A stretch of DNA of 22,952 bases from positions 1 to 22,952 of the IMG/VR virus record IMGVR_UViG_3300046746_000366. One strand, 5' to 3'. The position numbers and the translations under genes were made by a program. Below, piece after piece: positions 1,541-10,924 of the stretch. Positions within the stretch are counted from its first letter, which is position 1. Every line of letters starts with the position of its first letter. The notes beneath the pieces were generated by a model. The model searched no databases, was not told the DNA's origin, and worked only from the letters and a program-made list of their open reading frames with translations. This DNA comes from a virus.

Positions 1541-1825
1541 ATGTTGCTTGTGAGCGTTAATAGATACTTAGTACGTATTAGTTTTAAACGAGAAGTTAAG
1601 GCGCAAGTATGGGTTAAGGCCAGAACCACCAATCAGGCACTAGTCAACGCCTTAAACGCTGTCAAGCATAACCTTAGCCACATAACTAGTGTTTGCATAA
1701 TAGGCCAACCAATCCCAGTATGCAAACGCAAGCGTAAACAGCAACAAGCTGAACAATTGCCAGAGCGGGCTGAGCGTTATAAAAAACCAAAGCCACCAAA
1801 GCCGCCAAGTATTTTCGATATCTAA
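1541..1825 (+). CDS. Small basic early phage protein, unknown function
   Basis: A 94-residue protein. Residues about 8-58 look like a compact alpha-beta unit: a strand (RYLVRISFKREV), a strand (AQVWVKA), a helix (TTNQALVNALNAVKHNL) and a strand (ITSVCIIGQPI). It is followed by a highly basic, glutamine- and proline-rich tail (KRKRKQQQ, then KKPKPPKPP). Small proteins with this strand-strand-helix-strand order and a charged tail are frequent in phage early regions, but I cannot name a family. No Shine-Dalgarno sequence precedes ATG 1541; GTG 1550 is a possible alternative start. A strong promoter begins 5 bp after its stop. The minus-strand frames over the same bases have poor composition and are taken as shadows. 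Confidence 0.6.
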   Translation: MLLVSVNRYLVRISFKREVKAQVWVKARTTNQALVNALNAVKHNLSHITSVCIIGQPIPVCKRKRKQQQAEQLPERAERYKKPKPPKPPSIFDI

Positions 1826-1829
1826 TCCC

Positions 1830-1858
1830 TTGCACAAAAAAGCCAGTTGTGTTATAAT
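1830..1858 (+). promoter_or_regulatory. Strong sigma70-type promoter
   Basis: TTGCAC at 1830-1835, a 17-bp spacer, then a perfect TATAAT at 1853-1858. Transcription would start near 1865, inside a CA/CGCC-rich tract, and read through the A+T-rich repeat region toward the gene at 2401. It could serve as an early promoter or supply an origin transcript. Confidence 0.65.
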
Positions 1859-1900: not shown

Positions 1901-2066
1901 AACAAAAAAGTGTTAAATATATATTTACCCCATTACCCCTATATTATATAAATATATATTTTACTACCCAGATACGTTACTGTAGTTTTTTAAAAATGTT
2001 TAAATATTTTTTTTTTAGTTTATTTTACAACGATTATTAAAAAAAACAAAAAATTTATAAAAATCA
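1901..2066. other. A+T-rich segment, possible DNA-unwinding element
   Basis: About 165 bp with no plausible gene, made largely of A and T runs, including an eight-T run near 2010-2017 and several A runs near 2040-2060. It sits directly next to an array of repeated motifs and palindromes. This juxtaposition is the usual arrangement in iteron-type replication origins, where the A+T-rich part melts. The role is inferred. Confidence 0.4.
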
Positions 2067-2294
2067 CTGTATTACAGCGTTATGCCTAACTTTCGATATA
2101 CAAAATAAAATGCTGTATTTTAGCCAATTTTGTGCTGTATTTTGTTAGGCGTAGTACTGTAATACAGTATTACAACATCAGGCGTGCATTTGTAATACAG
2201 TATTACAACGCTAGGCGTAGTTTTGTAATACATAAAACAGGCTAAAATACATCATTTTGTTTTTGCCGATTTTTGTATTACAACGCTAGGCGTA
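2067..2294. repeat. Repeat array with two 17-bp palindromes; candidate origin or operator
   Basis: The core motif GCTAGGCGTA or close variants occurs in direct orientation at 2144-2153 (GTTAGGCGTA), 2177-2186 (ATCAGGCGTG), 2210-2219 and 2285-2294 (both GCTAGGCGTA), and inverted at 2081-2090 (TATGCCTAAC). The first three direct copies start exactly 33 bp apart. Two of them follow a perfect 17-bp palindrome, TGTAATACAGTATTACA, at 2158-2174 and 2191-2207; half-sites occur at 2069-2075, 2224-2231 and 2274-2280. The spacing of about three helical turns places protein sites on one face of the DNA. Iterons for an initiator, or operators of an early regulator, both fit. Confidence 0.75.
2101..2264. 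repeat. Imperfect 25-bp inverted repeat enclosing the array
   Basis: The segment 2101-2125 and the reverse complement of 2240-2264 match at 22 of 25 positions; the shared core is TGTATTTTAGCC. The arms enclose both 17-bp palindromes and three of the four direct core motifs, so they could form a large cruciform or mark the ends of a nucleoprotein complex. Confidence 0.7.
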
Positions 2295-2319
2295 AATCCA
2301 TATATCACGATTTTTCGAT

Positions 2320-2348
2320 TTGACGAGACTGGTCACGGTTGATACTAT
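2320..2348 (+). promoter_or_regulatory. Extended -10 promoter for the early operon
   Basis: TTGACG at 2320-2325, a 17-bp spacer ending in TGA, then TACTAT at 2343-2348, so the -10 has the extended TGn element. The expected start near 2355 leaves a leader of about 45 bases before the ATG at 2401. The last core motif of the repeat array ends 25 bp upstream of the -35, close enough for regulation by whatever binds the array. Confidence 0.5.
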
Positions 2349-2400: not shown

Positions 2401-2853
2401 ATGGGTAAATATAGTGAGTATTGCAAAAGGCTGAATGATGAATGCGATTGGCTTGCCAGAAACTTTTTGAATGAGACGCACACTGATATATCTATAAAAT
2501 GGATTGATCACGATTATTATTTTAAAGGCGATAAAAGACAAAGGGATATATATTATGTAAAGATAACAAGAAAAATGACAAAAGGGGAACAGTCATATAG
2601 CTTCGAATTTGGGCAATCGCTTGCCAATAGCTCCCCTCATCCTTTTCAAAGAAAAAGACCAACAGAATATGACATATTGGCTTGCTTAACGGCAACTGAT
2701 CCAGGCCGTCATGAGGAGTTTTGTTGGAATTACGGATATGATGAGGACTCTATTCATGGCCTTGAGCTTTATGAACGTGTCTATGATGAATTCAAAAACT
2801 TGAGTAGGCTGTATAGTAGTGAAGAGTTGGCAATGCTAGATGAGATCCGGTAA
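2401..2853 (+). CDS. Conserved phage early protein of unknown function
   Basis: A 150-residue soluble, charged protein. It begins MGKYSEYCKRLNDECDWLA and contains a mixed beta middle (ISIKWIDHDYYF, then RDIYYVKITRK, then YSFEFGQSLANS), and an end rich in acidic and aromatic residues (PTEYDILACLT, DPGRHEEFCWNYGYDEDS). From memory, similar proteins, with 'SFxFGQSxxNS' followed by 'PTxYDxLACLTxxDP', recur as hypothetical proteins in phages and prophages of many hosts; no function is known to me. The Shine-Dalgarno region is ggagtgaaagaaa just before ATG. It is the first gene after the repeat array and is more A+T-rich than the replication genes that follow. Confidence 0.85.
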   Translation: MGKYSEYCKRLNDECDWLARNFLNETHTDISIKWIDHDYYFKGDKRQRDIYYVKITRKMTKGEQSYSFEFGQSLANSSPHPFQRKRPTEYDILACLTATDPGRHEEFCWNYGYDEDSIHGLELYERVYDEFKNLSRLYSSEELAMLDEIR

Positions 2854-2855
2854 AA

Positions 2856-2987
2856 ATGATAAAAGTATCTAAAATTAATGGCCGCGTGTGGCTTAAAGTG
2901 TTTAATGAGACTGGCTTAGTGTATAGTGATGGCGATTTTGACACCATCAGTGACGCTATGGTTGCCGCGGCTTATTATTTAAATTAA
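2856..2987 (+). CDS. Small 43-residue phage protein
   Basis: A short frame starting at ATG 2856, two bases after the previous stop, and ending at TAA 2985-2987. The protein begins MIKVSKINGRVWLKVFNETG and ends DTISDAMVAAAYYLN, predicting two or three strands and a short helix. The tight spacing, lack of any other use for these bases and good codon use support a real gene. The Shine-Dalgarno is weak, so translation may depend on coupling to the preceding gene. Function unknown. Confidence 0.6.
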   Translation: MIKVSKINGRVWLKVFNETGLVYSDGDFDTISDAMVAAAYYLN

Positions 2988-3013
2988 TTAATTAAAATAG
3001 GAGAAAAAACAAA

Positions 3014-3688
3014 ATGAATATACAAACACATGCTTACAACTTAAAATGCGATTTAAGCGTAAGATTCACAAAGAAAGACGCGCCAGAAACCCTGGAGCAA
3101 TTGTACAACGCTACAGACGCCGTTGACTTGCGAGAAAAACTGGCCTTGTTATATTCAACGATGACTACAAAACCGGCTGTTAAGAATAATCCGTTGGCAT
3201 GGGCGGCAACGGCTAGTAATCCAAAGTGTGACCGCAATATGTTTGACAAGATGGTTGTTGCTAACGGCTATGCGATTGGTTGCGACGGGTATCGCATCCA
3301 CGGCTACAAATTGCCGGCCAGTCAAGCGGCTGATCTTGATGGCCAGTATATCGACGCTAACGGCAACATTTTAGCTATTGAAAAGCGCAACGATTTACCA
3401 CTTGAGCATATACTCACAATGCTTAATGCCGATACGTACCCGTTAACGGATACTTTTGATATTTCAAAATGTACCGTTGAAGCTGATGAATATAGTTCGG
3501 ATAAATTCTTCGACTTGGAATTGTTCGGCCAGAAGTGCCGGTTTAACAAAAAGTTTATTGAACAAGCGTTCAACGGCCGGCAAGCTGTCCATGTATGCAC
3601 GACAACTGAATTCAATGGCCAGCAATCGGTACGGTTTATGTTAAGTGAATCAGAAACCGCTGTTATCATGCCGGTACGCATTAAGTAA
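3014..3688 (+). CDS. Possible DNA polymerase sliding-clamp-like protein
   Basis: A 224-residue protein with a strong Shine-Dalgarno (aggagaaaaaac). Three places recall the bacterial beta clamp: DGYRIHGYKLP at residues 91-101 (clamps have 'ATDGYRLA'-like strands), FNKKFIEQAFNG at 177-188 (clamps have 'FNxxYLxxALxxL'), and AVIMPVRIK as the very last residues (beta clamps end 'YLxMPMRL'). The protein is shorter than DnaN (about 366 residues), so it would hold two domains rather than three. The phage has its own family A polymerase, which a processivity factor could serve. This is pattern recognition without a search; it may instead be an unrelated beta-rich protein. Confidence 0.45.
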   Translation: MNIQTHAYNLKCDLSVRFTKKDAPETLEQLYNATDAVDLREKLALLYSTMTTKPAVKNNPLAWAATASNPKCDRNMFDKMVVANGYAIGCDGYRIHGYKLPASQAADLDGQYIDANGNILAIEKRNDLPLEHILTMLNADTYPLTDTFDISKCTVEADEYSSDKFFDLELFGQKCRFNKKFIEQAFNGRQAVHVCTTTEFNGQQSVRFMLSESETAVIMPVRIK

Positions 3689-3690
3689 CA

Positions 3691-4071
3691 ATGACTAATA
3701 AACAGATCGCCATACGCATACCGAAAATCAAAAGCCCTGGAGCGTCCGGGGCTAAAGTAGTACCCAATCCGTTAGAAGTCCACACAACTCAAGCAGCTTA
3801 CCTATACATTGGCCATGAGTTAGTGGCGATACAATTATTTAACGGGCCGGCAGTGTTGCCGGTCAAATGGTGTAGTGGGATGCGTTCAGTTGATATAGTT
3901 GCTGAGTTTTTAGTGCAATATGGCCACAACGTCAGGGAGGGCAAGGCCCAGATCGACGAGGCCATTGAGGCGGGTACTATTTTAGTGAAAAATGCAAGGC
4001 CGGGCGGACGATTAGCTGTTGAGATCAAGGGCGACATCGCAAAATTTAAAAACAAGGAGAAAAAACAATGA
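3691..4071 (+). CDS. Phage protein of unknown function
   Basis: A 126-residue protein starting two bases after the previous stop. The N-terminus is basic and lacks predicted structure (KQIAIRIPKIKSPGASGAKV). A strand-rich part with YLYIGHELVAIQLFNG follows, then a helix (VDIVAEFLVQYGHNV) and a lysine-rich C-terminus (KGDIAKFKNKEKKQ). I do not recognise it. Its stop overlaps the next start (ATGA). Its last codons lie inside a 54-bp segment repeated 1.6 kb downstream, which marks the left edge of a module with repeat proteins. Confidence 0.75.
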   Translation: MTNKQIAIRIPKIKSPGASGAKVVPNPLEVHTTQAAYLYIGHELVAIQLFNGPAVLPVKWCSGMRSVDIVAEFLVQYGHNVREGKAQIDEAIEAGTILVKNARPGGRLAVEIKGDIAKFKNKEKKQ

Positions 4072-4079
4072 ATAAACAA
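4026..4079 (+). repeat. 54-bp direct repeat, left copy
   Basis: This segment matches 5621-5674 at 50 of 54 positions. It covers the last 14 codons of one gene, the Shine-Dalgarno (aaggagaaaaaa) and the first codons (ATGAATAAACAA) of the next. The two copies bracket the octapeptide, pentapeptide and 238-residue genes. Confidence 0.95.
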
Positions 4080-4553
4080 GAGATTTATTTGGATGTAGGA
4101 AAAACACAGCCAGTGACTGATTTTGAGGTTGACGAGGATGGCCAAGCTATTATTCGTGAGGGCAGTTGGTACGTTTTTGGCAAGTCAAAAATTAAAGCGT
4201 TTGAGGATGCGGAGGTTTGCGCTTGCGACAATGTGGATGTTACGGCGCACGACAATGCGAAGGTTGACGCTTATGACAATGCGGTGGTTGATGCGCGCGG
4301 CAAAGTGAGGGTTTATGCGGAAGGGAATTCGCGGGTTTTTGCGTTCGACAATGCGAAAGTTTATGCGTTGGGGTATGCTCGGGTTGTGGCGTCTCAAAGT
4401 GCGCGGGTTGTGGCGTTCGACGAGGCGGATGTCGCTGCGCACGACAAGGTGGAGGTGTTTGCGTTCGAAAATGTGGAGGTTTGGGCATACGACGACGCAA
4501 GGGTTAATGCGTTCGACAAGGTGGAGGTACAACAATGGATAAACAAAAAATGA
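4068..4553 (+). CDS. Octapeptide-repeat (predicted beta-solenoid) protein
   Basis: A 161-residue protein. After about 43 N-terminal residues come 14 uninterrupted 8-residue repeats at residues 44-155 with consensus A-[FYH]-[DE]-[NDK]-[AV]-x-V-x, for example AFEDAEVC, AHDNAKVD, AYDNAVVD, AFDNAKVY, AFDEADVA and AFDKVEVQ. Alanine at position 1 and valine at position 7 alternate with charged positions, which predicts a regular beta-helix with small inward-facing residues. Similar 'A-x-D-x-A-x-V-x' arrays occur in uncharacterised phage and actinobacterial proteins, as far as I recall. There is no signal peptide. It overlaps the preceding stop (ATGA) and the following pentapeptide gene by 19 bases, and has a strong Shine-Dalgarno. 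Function unknown; a protein- or DNA-mimicking scaffold is a speculative option. Confidence 0.85.
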   Translation: MNKQEIYLDVGKTQPVTDFEVDEDGQAIIREGSWYVFGKSKIKAFEDAEVCACDNVDVTAHDNAKVDAYDNAVVDARGKVRVYAEGNSRVFAFDNAKVYALGYARVVASQSARVVAFDEADVAAHDKVEVFAFENVEVWAYDDARVNAFDKVEVQQWINKK

Positions 4554-4900
4554 TTGAGTTATTAAAAACAGACGTACCGGCATGGAACCAATGGCGGGCG
4601 GACAACCCCGATGCGGTTATTGATTTATCGGGGGCGAACCTTAGTGGGTTAGACTTGAGAAACGCAGACCTTTTTGACGTAAATTTGTTCGAGGTTAACC
4701 TTAGCGGCGCAAAACTTAATCGCGCCATCCTTGATTGGGCATACCATTGCGGCGCAAAACTTACCGGCGCAAACCTGATGTACGTAACCCTTAATTCGGC
4801 ATATCAGTACCATTCAGACCTTACACGGGCATACCATTACCACGCAAATTGTGCACGGGCATTCTTTGCCGGAGACAACACAAACACGGAGGCAAAATAA
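4535..4900 (+). CDS. Pentapeptide-repeat protein
   Basis: A 121-residue protein. Residues 1-28 form a short helical cap (IELLKTDVPAWNQWRADNPD). From about residue 29 a leucine recurs every fifth residue (L31, L36, L41, L46, L51, L56, L61, L66), with repeats such as LSGAN, LRNAD, LFDVN, LSGAK and LTGAN. This is the pentapeptide-repeat right-handed quadrilateral beta-helix. Towards the end the repeats degenerate into aromatic-histidine variants (AYHYHAN). Some relatives (MfpA, Qnr, McbG) mimic DNA and protect gyrase; whether this protein does so cannot be said. It starts inside the previous gene behind GGAGG, and its stop shares bases with the next start (TAATG). Confidence 0.9.
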   Translation: MDKQKMIELLKTDVPAWNQWRADNPDAVIDLSGANLSGLDLRNADLFDVNLFEVNLSGAKLNRAILDWAYHCGAKLTGANLMYVTLNSAYQYHSDLTRAYHYHANCARAFFAGDNTNTEAK

Positions 4901-5620: not shown

Positions 5621-5674
5621 CAAGGGCGACATGGCAAAAAGTAAAAACAAGGAGAAAAAATAATGAATAAACAA
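5621..5674 (+). repeat. 54-bp direct repeat, right copy
   Basis: This copy is 50/54 identical to 4026-4079. Here the part that encodes the end of a gene in the left copy is reduced to a remnant: a ten-codon frame, MAKSKNKEKK, from ATG 5631 whose TAATG junction overlaps the next gene. It looks like the trace of a duplicated or recombined gene end. Confidence 0.95.
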
Positions 5675-5941
5675 CACATGGTTACATTTAGAACAGAAGA
5701 TGTAGTCGCACGACTATTTAAAGCGTATTGTAAAGACAAGGGCGTGACGGTCACATGGGCGTTGTCGGCGTTCATGGCTATGGCAGTGTCCCAAGTTTAT
5801 GAAGCCGACACAGAGATTGACACAATTTTAGCGAAAAAGATAGCCGGTTCGACTTGTTATCAGCAGGAATTTATGTTACTAATTAGAGACTTGATGGGCG
5901 ATATGATAACGAAAATGGAGCAAGGGGCCGGGGGCAAGTGA
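5663..5941 (+). CDS. Possible ribbon-helix-helix protein
   Basis: A 92-residue protein with a strong Shine-Dalgarno (aaggagaaaaaata). Residues 7-42 could form a ribbon-helix-helix unit: a short strand MVTFRTED, a helix VVARLFKAYCKDKG, a turn, and a second helix TWALSAFMAMAVSQVY. This is the order seen in Arc/MetJ-type DNA-binding dimers. The rest is helical (EFMLLIRDLMGDMITKME). If correct it would be a small regulator within the early operon, but no operator can be assigned to it. It ends with a GTGA overlap with the next gene. Confidence 0.5.
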   Translation: MNKQHMVTFRTEDVVARLFKAYCKDKGVTVTWALSAFMAMAVSQVYEADTEIDTILAKKIAGSTCYQQEFMLLIRDLMGDMITKMEQGAGGK

Positions 5942-7011: not shown

Positions 7012-9162
7012 ATGACCCGATTAAAGCCGAGTGCGGCATTACTAAAAACCGCTAAAGTTTTTTATGACAACGGACTTATAACCATGCCACTTAAGGGCAA
7101 GGTACCCACGGTAAAAAACTGGACGCAGTTAGAGCTTCCAGATGCGTTTGACGCAAACTACTACACAACAAGCTCAGCGGGCTGGGTGATTCGTGAGCCC
7201 TATATGGTTATCGATGTGGACGTGCGGCCAGAGATTAATGGAATGGTTAGCCTACAACGGTTAGCCGACGACCTTGGGTTTGATTTTATGTCTAACGCAG
7301 GCGTTACGGTGAGCACCCCGACTGGGGGCCTGCATTTGTACTACAAGATCTTCCAAAGCGGCGTTAGCTACAAGAAAAACTTGGCAGCTTACGAAGGGTT
7401 GGACTTTTTGCGGGACGGCCACCAAGTATTGATACCCCATAGCGAAACGGAGGCGGGTACGTACCAACTGGATGGCGGCGAGAACAAATTTTCAAACATT
7501 GTCGAGATACCGGAAGGCCTACATTTATTATTGATGCAAAAAGATGCGGAAGTGTGTGGGGGTACTGGTTATTTTACGGACAATAAAACAGATAAGCTGC
7601 TGTTGACAGGCTACATTAAACAGTTCGGTGTGATTGGCGAGGGCGAGCGCAACAATGCCTTGTATAAAATGGCTTGTCGAGGCTACGATTTAGGGTTGTC
7701 GCCCAAGGTGGTATTAGGTATTGTGGCAGACGCGGATTGTTTCTCGCCACCATTAGGTACTAAAGAGCTGGCCACCACGCTTGTGAGCGCATTGAGCGCA
7801 AGACAAAACGAGATCGGTTCGCATTCTGTTGAGGAAGCACTGAAAGCCCTAGGCCCTATAGATTCTGGCTGTTCTCCGGGCCAAGGGCTTAATGACGTGC
7901 TTCCCCAAGAGAAAGTGGACGCTCAGTTTGATGAAGTGTGCCCGTGGCACGACAAGCTACACAAAACCAAACACGGCACCGTGAGTGCTCAGAATTTTTG
8001 TGTCCGAAACTGCGCCATATTTTTAAAGAACATGAAAGAGTTTAAGGGCAAGTTGGGCTACAATGAGTGGAGTCGTGAGACGGTGTGGCTAGGGCCATGT
8101 AGTTGGCACGCATTTGATAAAGCGGACTGTATGCCGAACGGTATTTCAGTGACGGACGATGATTTACTATCTATTAAAACATTGTTTAATGACATGGAGT
8201 TTGACCCCTTGGTTAACCAGATATACCAAGCCGCTCGGACTGTTGGGTTTGAGAAAAGTTTTCACCCAGTCAAGAAGTGGTTTAGTGAGTTGCCGGAGTG
8301 GGACGGTGTGGAGCGGGTACGTGGGTTGTTTCCGAAATATTGCCATTCAGAAGACACTGCATTTAATCGTGAGGTCGGTGAGGTGTTGATGTGTGCGATA
8401 GTTAAACGGATTTATGAGCCGGGGTGCAAGTATGATCACATGGTGGTGTTGGTGGGCCCAGAAGAGCAAGGCAAGTCCACCGCCATTAAGGCGTTGTCGG
8501 TGTTTAACAGTTGGTTCACGGATTCGCTGGGCGATATTAACAAAACTGGCGATGCCATTCAGCAGATCAAAGGTAAGTTGATTATTGAGGACTCAGAGCT
8601 TAATGCTTTTATGAGCCGGTCGAATACGGTGGCGAGTGTTAAGGCGTTTATATCTCGCGAGGTTGACCGAGCACGACTGGCGTATGCGAAGTTGACCGAG
8701 GACGTTCCGCGCCAGTGTGTGTTTATGGGCACAACAAACGAGAACCAATTTTTGAATAGCGTTACTGGGAACCGTCGGATATGGCCGGTCGAGGTGTACG
8801 ACATTGACGTTCCAACGCTTACCGAAGATTTACCGCAGTTGTATGCGGAGGCGTTGGTCGTTTACAAAAAGCGGTACGCTGGGTTAAAAAATGGACTGGT
8901 GTTGCAATCGGCAGAAGCGATGGAGCAAGCCAAGAAAGCTCAGACTAGTCGCATTGAAGTGGACGAGCTTGAAAGAGTTATCCAAGAGTGGTTGACTAAA
9001 GGCGTGAGAGACGGGTTCCAGTTGAGTGATGTTTGGGACGGTTTAGGTCGAGACATAATACACCTAAGTGTCAAGGAACAAAAGCGTCTGGAGCGTGCGT
9101 TGTTGAAGTTGCAGTATAAACGCAGTGATAATGGATTTGTGAAGATTGGAGGTAAAAAATGA
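7012..9162 (+). CDS. Primase-polymerase / VapE-type helicase fusion
   Basis: A 716-residue replication protein with two enzymatic halves. Residues 1-165 match the archaeo-eukaryotic Prim-Pol domain: the metal-binding D68-V-D70 in MVIDVDVR, the TPTGGLHLYY motif at 102-111, and GHQVLIPHS at 136-144. Residues about 400-660 match the virulence-associated protein E / superfamily 3-like ATPase: WFSELPEWDG before it, Walker A GPEEQGKST at 482-490, the acidic Walker B-like LIIEDSEL near 521-529, and the TTNENQFLNSVTGNRR segment containing the sensor and arginine residues. It should open the origin, unwind DNA and make primers at the phage fork. Good Shine-Dalgarno; the stop overlaps the first DUF4116 gene (ATGA). 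Confidence 0.92.
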   Translation: MTRLKPSAALLKTAKVFYDNGLITMPLKGKVPTVKNWTQLELPDAFDANYYTTSSAGWVIREPYMVIDVDVRPEINGMVSLQRLADDLGFDFMSNAGVTVSTPTGGLHLYYKIFQSGVSYKKNLAAYEGLDFLRDGHQVLIPHSETEAGTYQLDGGENKFSNIVEIPEGLHLLLMQKDAEVCGGTGYFTDNKTDKLLLTGYIKQFGVIGEGERNNALYKMACRGYDLGLSPKVVLGIVADADCFSPPLGTKELATTLVSALSARQNEIGSHSVEEALKALGPIDSGCSPGQGLNDVLPQEKVDAQFDEVCPWHDKLHKTKHGTVSAQNFCVRNCAIFLKNMKEFKGKLGYNEWSRETVWLGPCSWHAFDKADCMPNGISVTDDDLLSIKTLFNDMEFDPLVNQIYQAARTVGFEKSFHPVKKWFSELPEWDGVERVRGLFPKYCHSEDTAFNREVGEVLMCAIVKRIYEPGCKYDHMVVLVGPEEQGKSTAIKALSVFNSWFTDSLGDINKTGDAIQQIKGKLIIEDSELNAFMSRSNTVASVKAFISREVDRARLAYAKLTEDVPRQCVFMGTTNENQFLNSVTGNRRIWPVEVYDIDVPTLTEDLPQLYAEALVVYKKRYAGLKNGLVLQSAEAMEQAKKAQTSRIEVDELERVIQEWLTKGVRDGFQLSDVWDGLGRDIIHLSVKEQKRLERALLKLQYKRSDNGFVKIGGKK

Positions 9163-9602
9163 TTGATAAACTAAGGGGTTCCTGCTTGAAATTTTGCACA
9201 AAAGCAAAGGTATTGGACGTAGTGAGATATGATGGGCGTGCGTTGGAGTATGCGAGTTATAAATTAAAAGGTGATCGTGAGGTCGTATTGGAAGCGGTTA
9301 AAACGGATGGGTATGCGTTGGTGTATGCGTGGTATGAATTTCGTAATGATCGGGAAGTGGTGTTGTGGGCTGTGTGGGACGACGGGCATATGTTGGCGTA
9401 TGCAAGTGAGGAATTGCGGAATGATAAAAAGGTTGTGATGGCAGCGGTGAGGCAGAAGTGGAGTGCGTTGCGGTATGCATCTGATGAGTTACAGAATGAT
9501 AAAGATGTGTTACTGGAAGCATTGAAGTGGAATTGTGATGCGTTGGAGTATGCAAGTGATGAGTTGAAAAGTGAATTAAAAAAGGAGGTAAAAAATGATT
9601 AA
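9159..9602 (+). CDS. DUF4116 repeat protein, first of three
   Basis: A 147-residue protein built of five 25-residue repeats after about 16 residues, with consensus VVLxAVRxDGxALxYASxELRNDRE. Each repeat predicts two short helices, as in DUF4116 arrays. Repeats here are the most divergent of the three neighbours (tryptophan replaces glycine in RQKWSALRYAS). It begins with an ATGA overlap with the primase-helicase stop behind ggaggtaaaaa, and ends VKND with an 8-base overlap (ATGATTAA) with the next gene. No catalytic residues are visible; helical solenoids of this type usually bind other macromolecules. Confidence 0.85.
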   Translation: MIDKLRGSCLKFCTKAKVLDVVRYDGRALEYASYKLKGDREVVLEAVKTDGYALVYAWYEFRNDREVVLWAVWDDGHMLAYASEELRNDKKVVMAAVRQKWSALRYASDELQNDKDVLLEALKWNCDALEYASDELKSELKKEVKND

Positions 9603-9966
9603 TGAAAACAGTACAAAAGAAGAAGTGTTGGAAGCAGTGAAACAGGATGGGTGGGCATTGTGTTATGCCAGTAAGGAATTGAGGGATGATAAAGAAGTCG
9701 TGATGGCAGCGGTGAGGCAGAGTGGTCTTGCGTTGCGGTATGCCAGTGATGCATTGCGATGTGATCGTGAGGTAGTGATGGTAGCGGTTAAGGAAAATGG
9801 GAAATCGCTGGCTTATTCGAGTAGGAAATTGCGTAATGATCGTGAGGTTGTACTGGCAGCGGTTGAGCAGAATTGGTATGTGGTGGATTATGCAAGTGAT
9901 GCATTAAGGTTTGAAATGGCAAAGGGTTGGTTAGAGCGTATGAAACAGGAAATAAAAAATGATTGA
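9595..9966 (+). CDS. DUF4116 repeat protein, second of three
   Basis: A 123-residue protein with four 25-residue DUF4116 repeats (for example VVMAAVRQSGLALRYASDAL). Its opening, MINENSTKEEVLEAVKQDG, is close to that of the third gene (MIDGNSTKAEVLEVVKRYG), and its end, MKQEIKND, resembles the ends of the first and third genes. These shared start and end sequences indicate tandem gene duplication. Shine-Dalgarno GGAGG precedes ATG 9595. The stop overlaps the next start by 8 bases (ATGATTGA). Function unknown. Confidence 0.85.
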   Translation: MINENSTKEEVLEAVKQDGWALCYASKELRDDKEVVMAAVRQSGLALRYASDALRCDREVVMVAVKENGKSLAYSSRKLRNDREVVLAAVEQNWYVVDYASDALRFEMAKGWLERMKQEIKND

Positions 9967-10924
9967 TGGAAATAGTACAAAGGCAGAGGTTTTAGAAGTT
10001 GTTAAACGGTATGGGCTTATGTTGGAGTGTGCGAGTGAGGCATTGCGCGGTGATAAAGACGTGGTGCTGGCGGCGGTGAGGAATGAAGGGGAGGTGTTGT
10101 GGGCTGCTAGTGGGGACTTGAGGGGGGATCGTGATGTGGTGATGGAAGCGGTGAAGCAGAATGGGCTTGCGTTGGGGTCTGCTAGTGAGGAATTGAAGTG
10201 TGATCGTGAGGTGGTGATGGCAGCAGTGAAGAATTATGGGTATTCGTTGTGTTATGCTAGTGATGACTTGAGGGGGGATCGTGATGTGGTGATGGAAGCG
10301 GTGAAGAATTTTGGGTTTGCGTTGCAGTCTGTGAGTGATGAATTTCTGGATGATCGTGAGGTGGTTATGGCAGCGGTTAAGCAGGAGGGGACGGTGTTGG
10401 TGTTTGCAAGTGAGGAATTAAGTAGTGATCGTGATGTAGTGACGGCAGCGGTTCAACAGAATGGGAGAGCGTTGGAGCATGCGAGTTCTGAGTTGAAGGG
10501 TGATCGTGAGGTGGTGCTGGCAGCAGTGAGGCAGGAGGGGTGGGCGTTACAGTATGCCAGCGAGGAATTGCGGGGTAATCGTGAAGTAGTGCTGGAAGCG
10601 GTGAGGCAGAGTGGGGAGGCATTGAAGGCTGCTGGTGAGGCATTGAAGCGTGATCGAGATGTCGTCATGGCCGCGGTGGGTAGCAGTGGGCCTGCGTTGT
10701 ATTATGCAAGTGAGGAATTGCGTGCTGATCGTGAGGTTGTTCTGGCAGCGGTGGGGAGGAGTGGCTATGCGTTGGAGTATGCAAGTGCTGAATTGCAGGG
10801 GGATCGCGAGTTCATCTTGGCAGCGGTTCAACAGAATGGGAGAGCGTTGGAATGTGTTAGTGAGGAATTGCGAATTGAAATAGTGCAATGTTGGGCAGCG
10901 AGTATGGAGGTCAAAAATGATTGA
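9959..10924 (+). CDS. DUF4116 repeat protein, third and longest
   Basis: A 321-residue protein made almost entirely of twelve 25-residue DUF4116 repeats. The invariant core per repeat is VVMAAV, a glycine or similar, AL, a hydrophobic residue, AS, and EL followed by a charged GDRE-like turn. The repeats are close at DNA level too (for example 10141-10166 and 10291-10316, around gatggaagcggtgaag), so the array has probably grown by unequal recombination at 75-bp steps. The opposite strand is free of stops in one frame across much of the array, which is a by-product of the repeat. It ends VKND and overlaps the membrane-protein gene by ATGATTGA. Binding scaffold or decoy are speculative roles. 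Confidence 0.88.
   Translation: MIDGNSTKAEVLEVVKRYGLMLECASEALRGDKDVVLAAVRNEGEVLWAASGDLRGDRDVVMEAVKQNGLALGSASEELKCDREVVMAAVKNYGYSLCYASDDLRGDRDVVMEAVKNFGFALQSVSDEFLDDREVVMAAVKQEGTVLVFASEELSSDRDVVTAAVQQNGRALEHASSELKGDREVVLAAVRQEGWALQYASEELRGNREVVLEAVRQSGEALKAAGEALKRDRDVVMAAVGSSGPALYYASEELRADREVVLAAVGRSGYALEYASAELQGDREFILAAVQQNGRALECVSEELRIEIVQCWAASMEVKND

Follow-up and report, generated by a model that had tools for sequence, protein, structure and literature searches.

The C-terminal domain of the SaPI Rep and SCCmec Cch2 helicases binds iterons; in SaPIs and SCCmec these follow the helicase gene immediately, and in SCCmec they are 5 bp long (PMC7581432). P4 alpha and ORF904 of pRN1 both carry a C-terminal winged helix, and a downstream stem-loop has been proposed as the origin of pRN1 and of phage BIP-1 (PMC4234260). 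Few uncultured phages have a known replication origin. Many phages encode Prim-Pol/VapE-type helicases, but the site at which these start replication has seldom been shown. In the lambda origin, phased direct repeats lie beside an A+T-rich unwinding block with a promoter nearby, and the initiator is lambda O. Initiators that bind iterons often regulate their own operon.

The locus described here lies in IMG/VR virus record IMGVR_UViG_3300046746_000366, whose 22,952 bases were analysed at full length and are called the window below. The evidence tips modestly toward region 1906-2348, which includes a promoter, being the site where a podovirus-like phage of ~39 kb begins vegetative replication. 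The repeat array in this region is best read as an iteron-type origin that is probably also an operator for the early operon. These two roles are not mutually exclusive.

Comparing the locus with the described systems shows both what it shares with them and where it departs. Like SaPI Rep and SCCmec Cch2, the phage encodes a helicase of the VapE/D5-type self-loading kind, matched over ~350 residues, and the candidate origin is made of short repeats. However, the phage units are composite and 33 bp long, and they stand at the head of the operon, with 4.7 kb between them and the helicase gene downstream. An iteron origin is not found just downstream of the helicase gene (7012-9162), where the next gene overlaps the helicase stop codon, and a stem-loop origin at that place was rejected, as the DNA fold there is not unusual (z = +0.6). 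With phage P4 alpha the window protein would share the joining of primase, helicase and repeat-binding winged helix in one chain, as well as an origin made of repeats, but the P4 primase is of the TOPRIM type and that of the window protein is a Prim-Pol (PMC4234260). The pRN1 ORF904 and phage BIP-1 proteins likewise combine Prim-Pol, SF3-type helicase and C-terminal winged helix, the last only predicted in the window protein, whereas the origin put forward for them is a stem-loop that follows the gene. Iteron plasmid origins (PMC4980987) have the same phased direct repeats beside an A+T-rich unwinding block, with a promoter nearby. Unlike in those plasmids and in lambda, initiators of the RepA/TrfA or lambda O kind are not recognised here, and a RepA/DnaA-dependent origin was rejected because 1171-2410 holds no exact match to the DnaA box (TTWTNCACA). 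The candidate origin stands apart from the nearest described systems in the size and composite build of its units and in lying upstream of the operon. With its candidate initiator, and placed elsewhere than in SaPIs or pRN1, this compact and conserved candidate makes it possible to test directly how helicases of this type select the site where they start.

The repeat array and its surroundings

In the window, the late genes (terminase, portal and capsid) lie on the minus strand and the early and replication genes on the plus strand, from 2401 to ~18.4 kb. The replication set comprises a Prim-Pol/VapE-like helicase, an SNF2-type helicase, a DUF2800 nuclease, a single-strand binding protein, a family-A DNA polymerase and a RuvC-like resolvase. 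The array occupies a 575-bp intergenic gap, the largest non-coding gap in the window, at the head of this replication operon, which agrees with the placement given in an earlier, sequence-only reading of this DNA. To the left, a small minus-strand ORF (935-1171) contains a 48-bp tandem duplication. The features of the gap are the following.

1830-1858, plus strand: upstream promoter-like site P1, TTGCAC-17-TATAAT, near-consensus, with a C-rich (CA/CG) leader after it
1912-1964, no strand: A+T palindrome, AAATATATATTTA ... TAAATATATATTTTAC; comparable palindromes in relatives, including G015
1966-2065, no strand: conserved A+T-rich segment, candidate DNA unwinding element, overlapped by the A+T maximum of the window
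2066-2090, minus strand: site a, a partial inverted unit with half-site GTATTACA and inverted core TTATGCCTAA at ~2081
2102-2134, no strand: left inverted arm, 33 nt, 85% complementary to 2231-2263; frames units b-d
2137-2165, plus strand: unit b, with degenerate left end GTATTTTG, core GTTAGGCGTA at 2144 and half-site GTAATAC
2158-2174, no strand: palindrome TGTAATACAGTATTACA at the b/c junction
2167-2198, plus strand: unit c, GTATTAC, core ATCAGGCGTG at 2177, GTAATAC; layout perfect
2190-2208, no strand: palindrome TTGTAATACAGTATTACAA at the c/d junction, a 19-bp extension of the TGTAATACAGTATTACA at 2191-2207
2200-2231, plus strand: unit d, GTATTAC, core GCTAGGCGTA at 2210, GTAATAC; layout perfect
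2231-2263, no strand: right inverted arm, pairs with 2102-2134
2275-2306, plus strand: unit e, GTATTAC, core GCTAGGCGTA at 2285, degenerate right half CATATATC
2320-2348, plus strand: early promoter P2, sigma-70, TTGACG-17-TACTAT with extended -10; 90-96% identity in close relatives

The repeat unit is 32 bp plus one base (32-33 bp) and consists of a half-site GTATTAC, a core TAGGCGT and an inverted half-site GTAATAC. Direct reading places cores at 2144, 2177, 2210 and 2285 and an inverted one at 2081, exactly where the sequence-only reading had put them, and also bears out its pair of identical palindromes, which lie at 2158-2174 and 2191-2207. These palindromes are the junctions of adjacent units. 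The right half of unit e reads CATATATC in the window and CATACATC in most relatives.

The array is not a chance pattern. At a lag of 33, 44 of 60 positions match, whereas 500 dinucleotide shuffles give 28.8 on average and never more than 36, and a 21-nt core pattern is found twice against 0.00 expected by chance. All seven copies of the 8-mer TGTAATAC in the window fall inside 2069-2282. In G012, a 39,572-base record that is near-identical to most of the window and differs in the cassette immediately 3' of the array, every copy is again inside the array; the counts in near-complete relatives are 7/7, 7/7, 6/6 and 6/7, so that the 8-mer is exclusive to the array in three of them.

The neighbouring DNA was also largely as described before. 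Over 100-bp stretches, the A+T content of the window peaks at 1977-2076 (87%), touching the array, and both of the flanking promoters that had been called good match well, but only the downstream one, P2, is kept in all close relatives. P1 is present in the L008, G021 and G026 types and missing from the G001 type, which retains the array. The -35 and -10 of both promoters are clear of the array units, and units b-d precede the P2 -35 by about 90-180 bp. The DNA after P1 contains an unusual C-rich run at 1853-1899 (CGCGCGCACACACACGCACGCCC...), which is found in several relatives and not in the G001 type.

Conservation and geometry among relatives

Scans of IMG/VR with the 2401 protein, the primase-helicase and the palindrome gave overlapping sets of 11, 25 and 14 records, respectively, which group into ten array variants and one distant lineage, G015/G018. 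Two unrelated contigs with an exact palindrome match, L017 and L021, were discarded because they hold lone palindromes and no array. A DNA similarity search against named phages gave no match, and a helicase search of genome contigs found no prophage or host relatives. In the cultured phages nearest by terminase (Pelagibacter Hodr, Methylophilales MEP301, Vibrio VA-RY-3 and Cronobacter Ss1), no similar array is present in the regions examined. Intermediate relatives were also sought through the large terminase, and among 80 loci none outside the known group shares the replication module. L010 and L011 combine window-type arrays with a G015-type terminase, which suggests recombination. The large terminases of L011, L010 and L058 carry a 41-aa Cys-rich insert (CxxC pairs, zinc-finger-like) that is absent from the window-type protein.

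The array is retained in 10 variants, contrary to the loss of motifs that the sequence-only reading had named as counter-evidence. It does not, however, always stay upstream of the 2401 gene, a point that the same reading had proposed to check, since several array carriers lack the gene.

The b-c and c-d distances are exactly 33 bp in 10/10 array variants. Units d and e are 75 bp apart except in G021 (64 bp) and G026 (65 bp), a shortening of about one helical turn. The core of unit e lies a constant 30 bp from the P2 -35 across all 10-11 variants compared, and in ten the spacing between the A+T block and site a does not change. Constant phasing of this kind is a requirement expected of proteins bound along one face of the DNA. 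The core vocabulary is small (TAGGCGT, TACACGTG and TAAGCGT). Unit d of G014 has the sequence of a c-type unit turned around, which suggests that whole units may act as functional modules.

Compared with four close relatives, identity is 81-86% in the A+T block, 74-86% in unit e and 90-96% in P2, the best-conserved stretch. All three exceed the four-fold sites of the primase gene (69-77%), but units b-d (61-69%) do not, so it is the layout and vocabulary of these units that are conserved, rather than their letters. A more distant comparison is provided by G015, whose primase is 80% identical. Its half-sites have been exchanged for ATATATA-rich DNA, yet cores resembling TAGGCGTAA persist at the matching location, together with unit e and the A+T block.

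Candidate binding proteins

A protein that the array requires as its binder must occur in every array carrier. This excludes the 2401-2853 product, which the sequence-only reading had listed as a candidate, because its gene is missing from the array carriers G012, G013, G014, G016, G021 and G026. The genes found in all array carriers, where the record covers them, are the small-terminase gene, 1541, 3691, 5663 and the primase-helicase. Four of their products can be considered.

1541-1825, plus strand: small basic protein, possible accessory; conserved immediately upstream of the array
3691-4071, plus strand: small protein, possible half-site binder; present in carriers of GTAATAC arrays
5663-5941, plus strand: small protein, possible accessory DNA-binding protein; in every covered array carrier, always upstream of the primase-helicase
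7012-9162, plus strand: candidate initiator, Prim-Pol plus PriCT_1 plus VapE-like (SF3/D5-type) helicase, with a C-terminal alpha-alpha-alpha-beta-beta segment

The 7012-9162 helicase is the best candidate for a binder of the array and the likely initiator. No initiator of the RepA or DnaA-like kind had been recognised nearby before, but this protein resembles the self-loading helicases of the SaPI Rep type. It matches the VapE-like domain (E = 6.5e-63) and aligns over ~350 residues to PDB 7pds, 'Similar to D. nodosus vapE' (E = 1.2e-46), an entry that we take to come from structural studies of the SaPI Rep helicases. Wherever the record of an array carrier extends over this gene, the primase-helicase is present. 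Residues 650-711 are predicted to fold as alpha-alpha-alpha-beta-beta, in a low-confidence winged-helix-like model (pLDDT about 45); the quality of the AlphaFold model of the full helicase allows secondary structure only to be read. The C-terminus gave no sequence match, and its final 50 residues fall outside the alignment with the solved VapE-like protein 7pds. In L063 (2707-4854), the primase-helicase homolog has an in-frame stop codon, which could be a sequencing error or a broken gene.

Within the unit, the most likely target of the helicase would be the core, because the core persists in G015, whose helicase C-terminus is nearly unchanged. The half-sites of G015 have changed while this C-terminus is near-identical, so the helicase target would be at most the core. 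A 3691 homolog was not detected in G015/G018, the one lineage that lost the GTAATAC half-sites. This correlation within a single lineage makes the 3691 product a possible half-site binder and a lead to follow. Carried further, the helicase would read the TAGGCGT core and a small early protein such as the 3691 product the GTAATAC palindromes, with G015 having swapped the second layer and kept the core; we regard this full two-protein scheme as unlikely.

As for the other small proteins, the 1541 product has diverged to about 45% in G015. The 5663-5941 product had been called ribbon-helix-helix-like, and its N-terminal sequence pattern and the two helices (14-26 and 30-45) of a model whose N-terminus is unresolved are compatible with that description, but searches for a ribbon-helix-helix match in Pfam, NCBIfam, PHROGs and the PDB give it no support.

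Initiation, transcription and competing explanations

In the mechanism that we infer for binding, melting, initiation and autoregulation, the 33-bp units would be iterons in phase on the DNA helix, and the conserved A+T-rich block to their left would be the unwinding element. The phage's own Prim-Pol/VapE-like helicase would recognise the units, probably via its C-terminal domain, assemble as hexamers, melt the A+T-rich block and load itself, and then prime synthesis for the phage family-A DNA polymerase. The complex bound at the units would probably also tune early transcription from P2, because the unit e core sits at its fixed distance from the -35. The GTAATAC palindromes may be bound by a second small phage protein or by a host protein. 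The position of the array, 4.7 kb upstream of the helicase gene and unlike that in known relatives, would count against the helicase acting there.

Conservation, fixed geometry, A+T-rich DNA and GC skew lend the candidate origin of the sequence-only reading support that is indirect and short of proof of function. The skew check that had been proposed gives a cumulative minimum at the array or at most ~1 kb to its left, and a maximum 14-18 kb to its right, in five near-complete genomes. This minimum is weak evidence for an origin, because skew also tracks gene direction, with mostly positive coding-strand values for genes on both strands, and because the array is close to the point where the early and late genes change strand. 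For the 1541 gene and its relatives, on the plus strand to the left of the array, skew is near zero or slightly negative, in small numbers, and this fits a switch at the array rather than at the strand change.

A tentative alternative is that the array is a multi-site operator or enhancer only, in which a small phage or host protein on the palindromes controls P2 and nothing at the site concerns replication. Perfect palindromes of 17-19 bp resemble dimer operators, and several small early proteins are conserved. Because unit e is locked to P2, the best-conserved stretch, at a distance that is constant across variants, a pure P2 operator keeps a lower but appreciable probability. However, the units leave both promoter cores free, units b-d are well upstream, and a pure operator needs neither the conserved 100-bp A+T-rich block nor so long an array; moreover, the proteins scanned yielded no recognisable repressor, integrase or helix-turn-helix family. 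The phage master switch that the sequence-only reading had offered beside an origin is not supported. The array is clear of both promoter cores, neither integrase nor repressor genes were recognised among the proteins scanned, which included part of the late set, and we found no evidence for a lysis-lysogeny switch.

Packaging sites often have repeated binding sites close to the terminase small-subunit gene, and a conserved gene of that kind (385-927) lies about 1.1 kb from the array. That the array is the recognition site (pac or cosB) for this subunit is nevertheless quite improbable, with two conserved genes (1382-1534 and 1541-1825) in between, the array fused to the promoter of the early operon, and many independent contigs crossing it unbroken, against a cleaved cos site. 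Strand folding far stronger than in shuffles (z = -6.0) and the near-consensus P1 would suit a region that acts as RNA, with P1 transcripts folding through the inverted repeats to regulate early genes or prime replication. But inverted protein sites alone predict strong folding, G001-type relatives keep the array without P1, and an Rfam search gave no family matches, which leaves this reading very improbable. Slighter still is the chance of a centromere-like partition site of a plasmid-phage: direct repeats and the N-terminal pattern of the 5663-5941 protein recall a ParR-like ribbon-helix-helix protein and its site, but that protein lacks a fold match, and no ParM/ParA-type gene or lysogeny gene was recognised in the proteins scanned.

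The segment just after the early promoter (2401-4071) is a swapped cassette, and G012, near-identical elsewhere, carries different genes there; in G026, the early promoter leads straight to a 43-aa gene and then to the 3691 homolog. Further along, the variable early region at 4068-4900 encodes a short-motif repeat protein and a pentapeptide-repeat protein. Tandem DUF4116-repeat genes occupy 9159-10924, with local GC skew of up to 0.6, and their paralogs sit elsewhere in relatives, including as the first early gene of G015 and G013. Among the late genes, L049:12112-14304 encodes a protein of 730 aa that has RCC1-like repeats and may serve as a tail fibre or in receptor binding.
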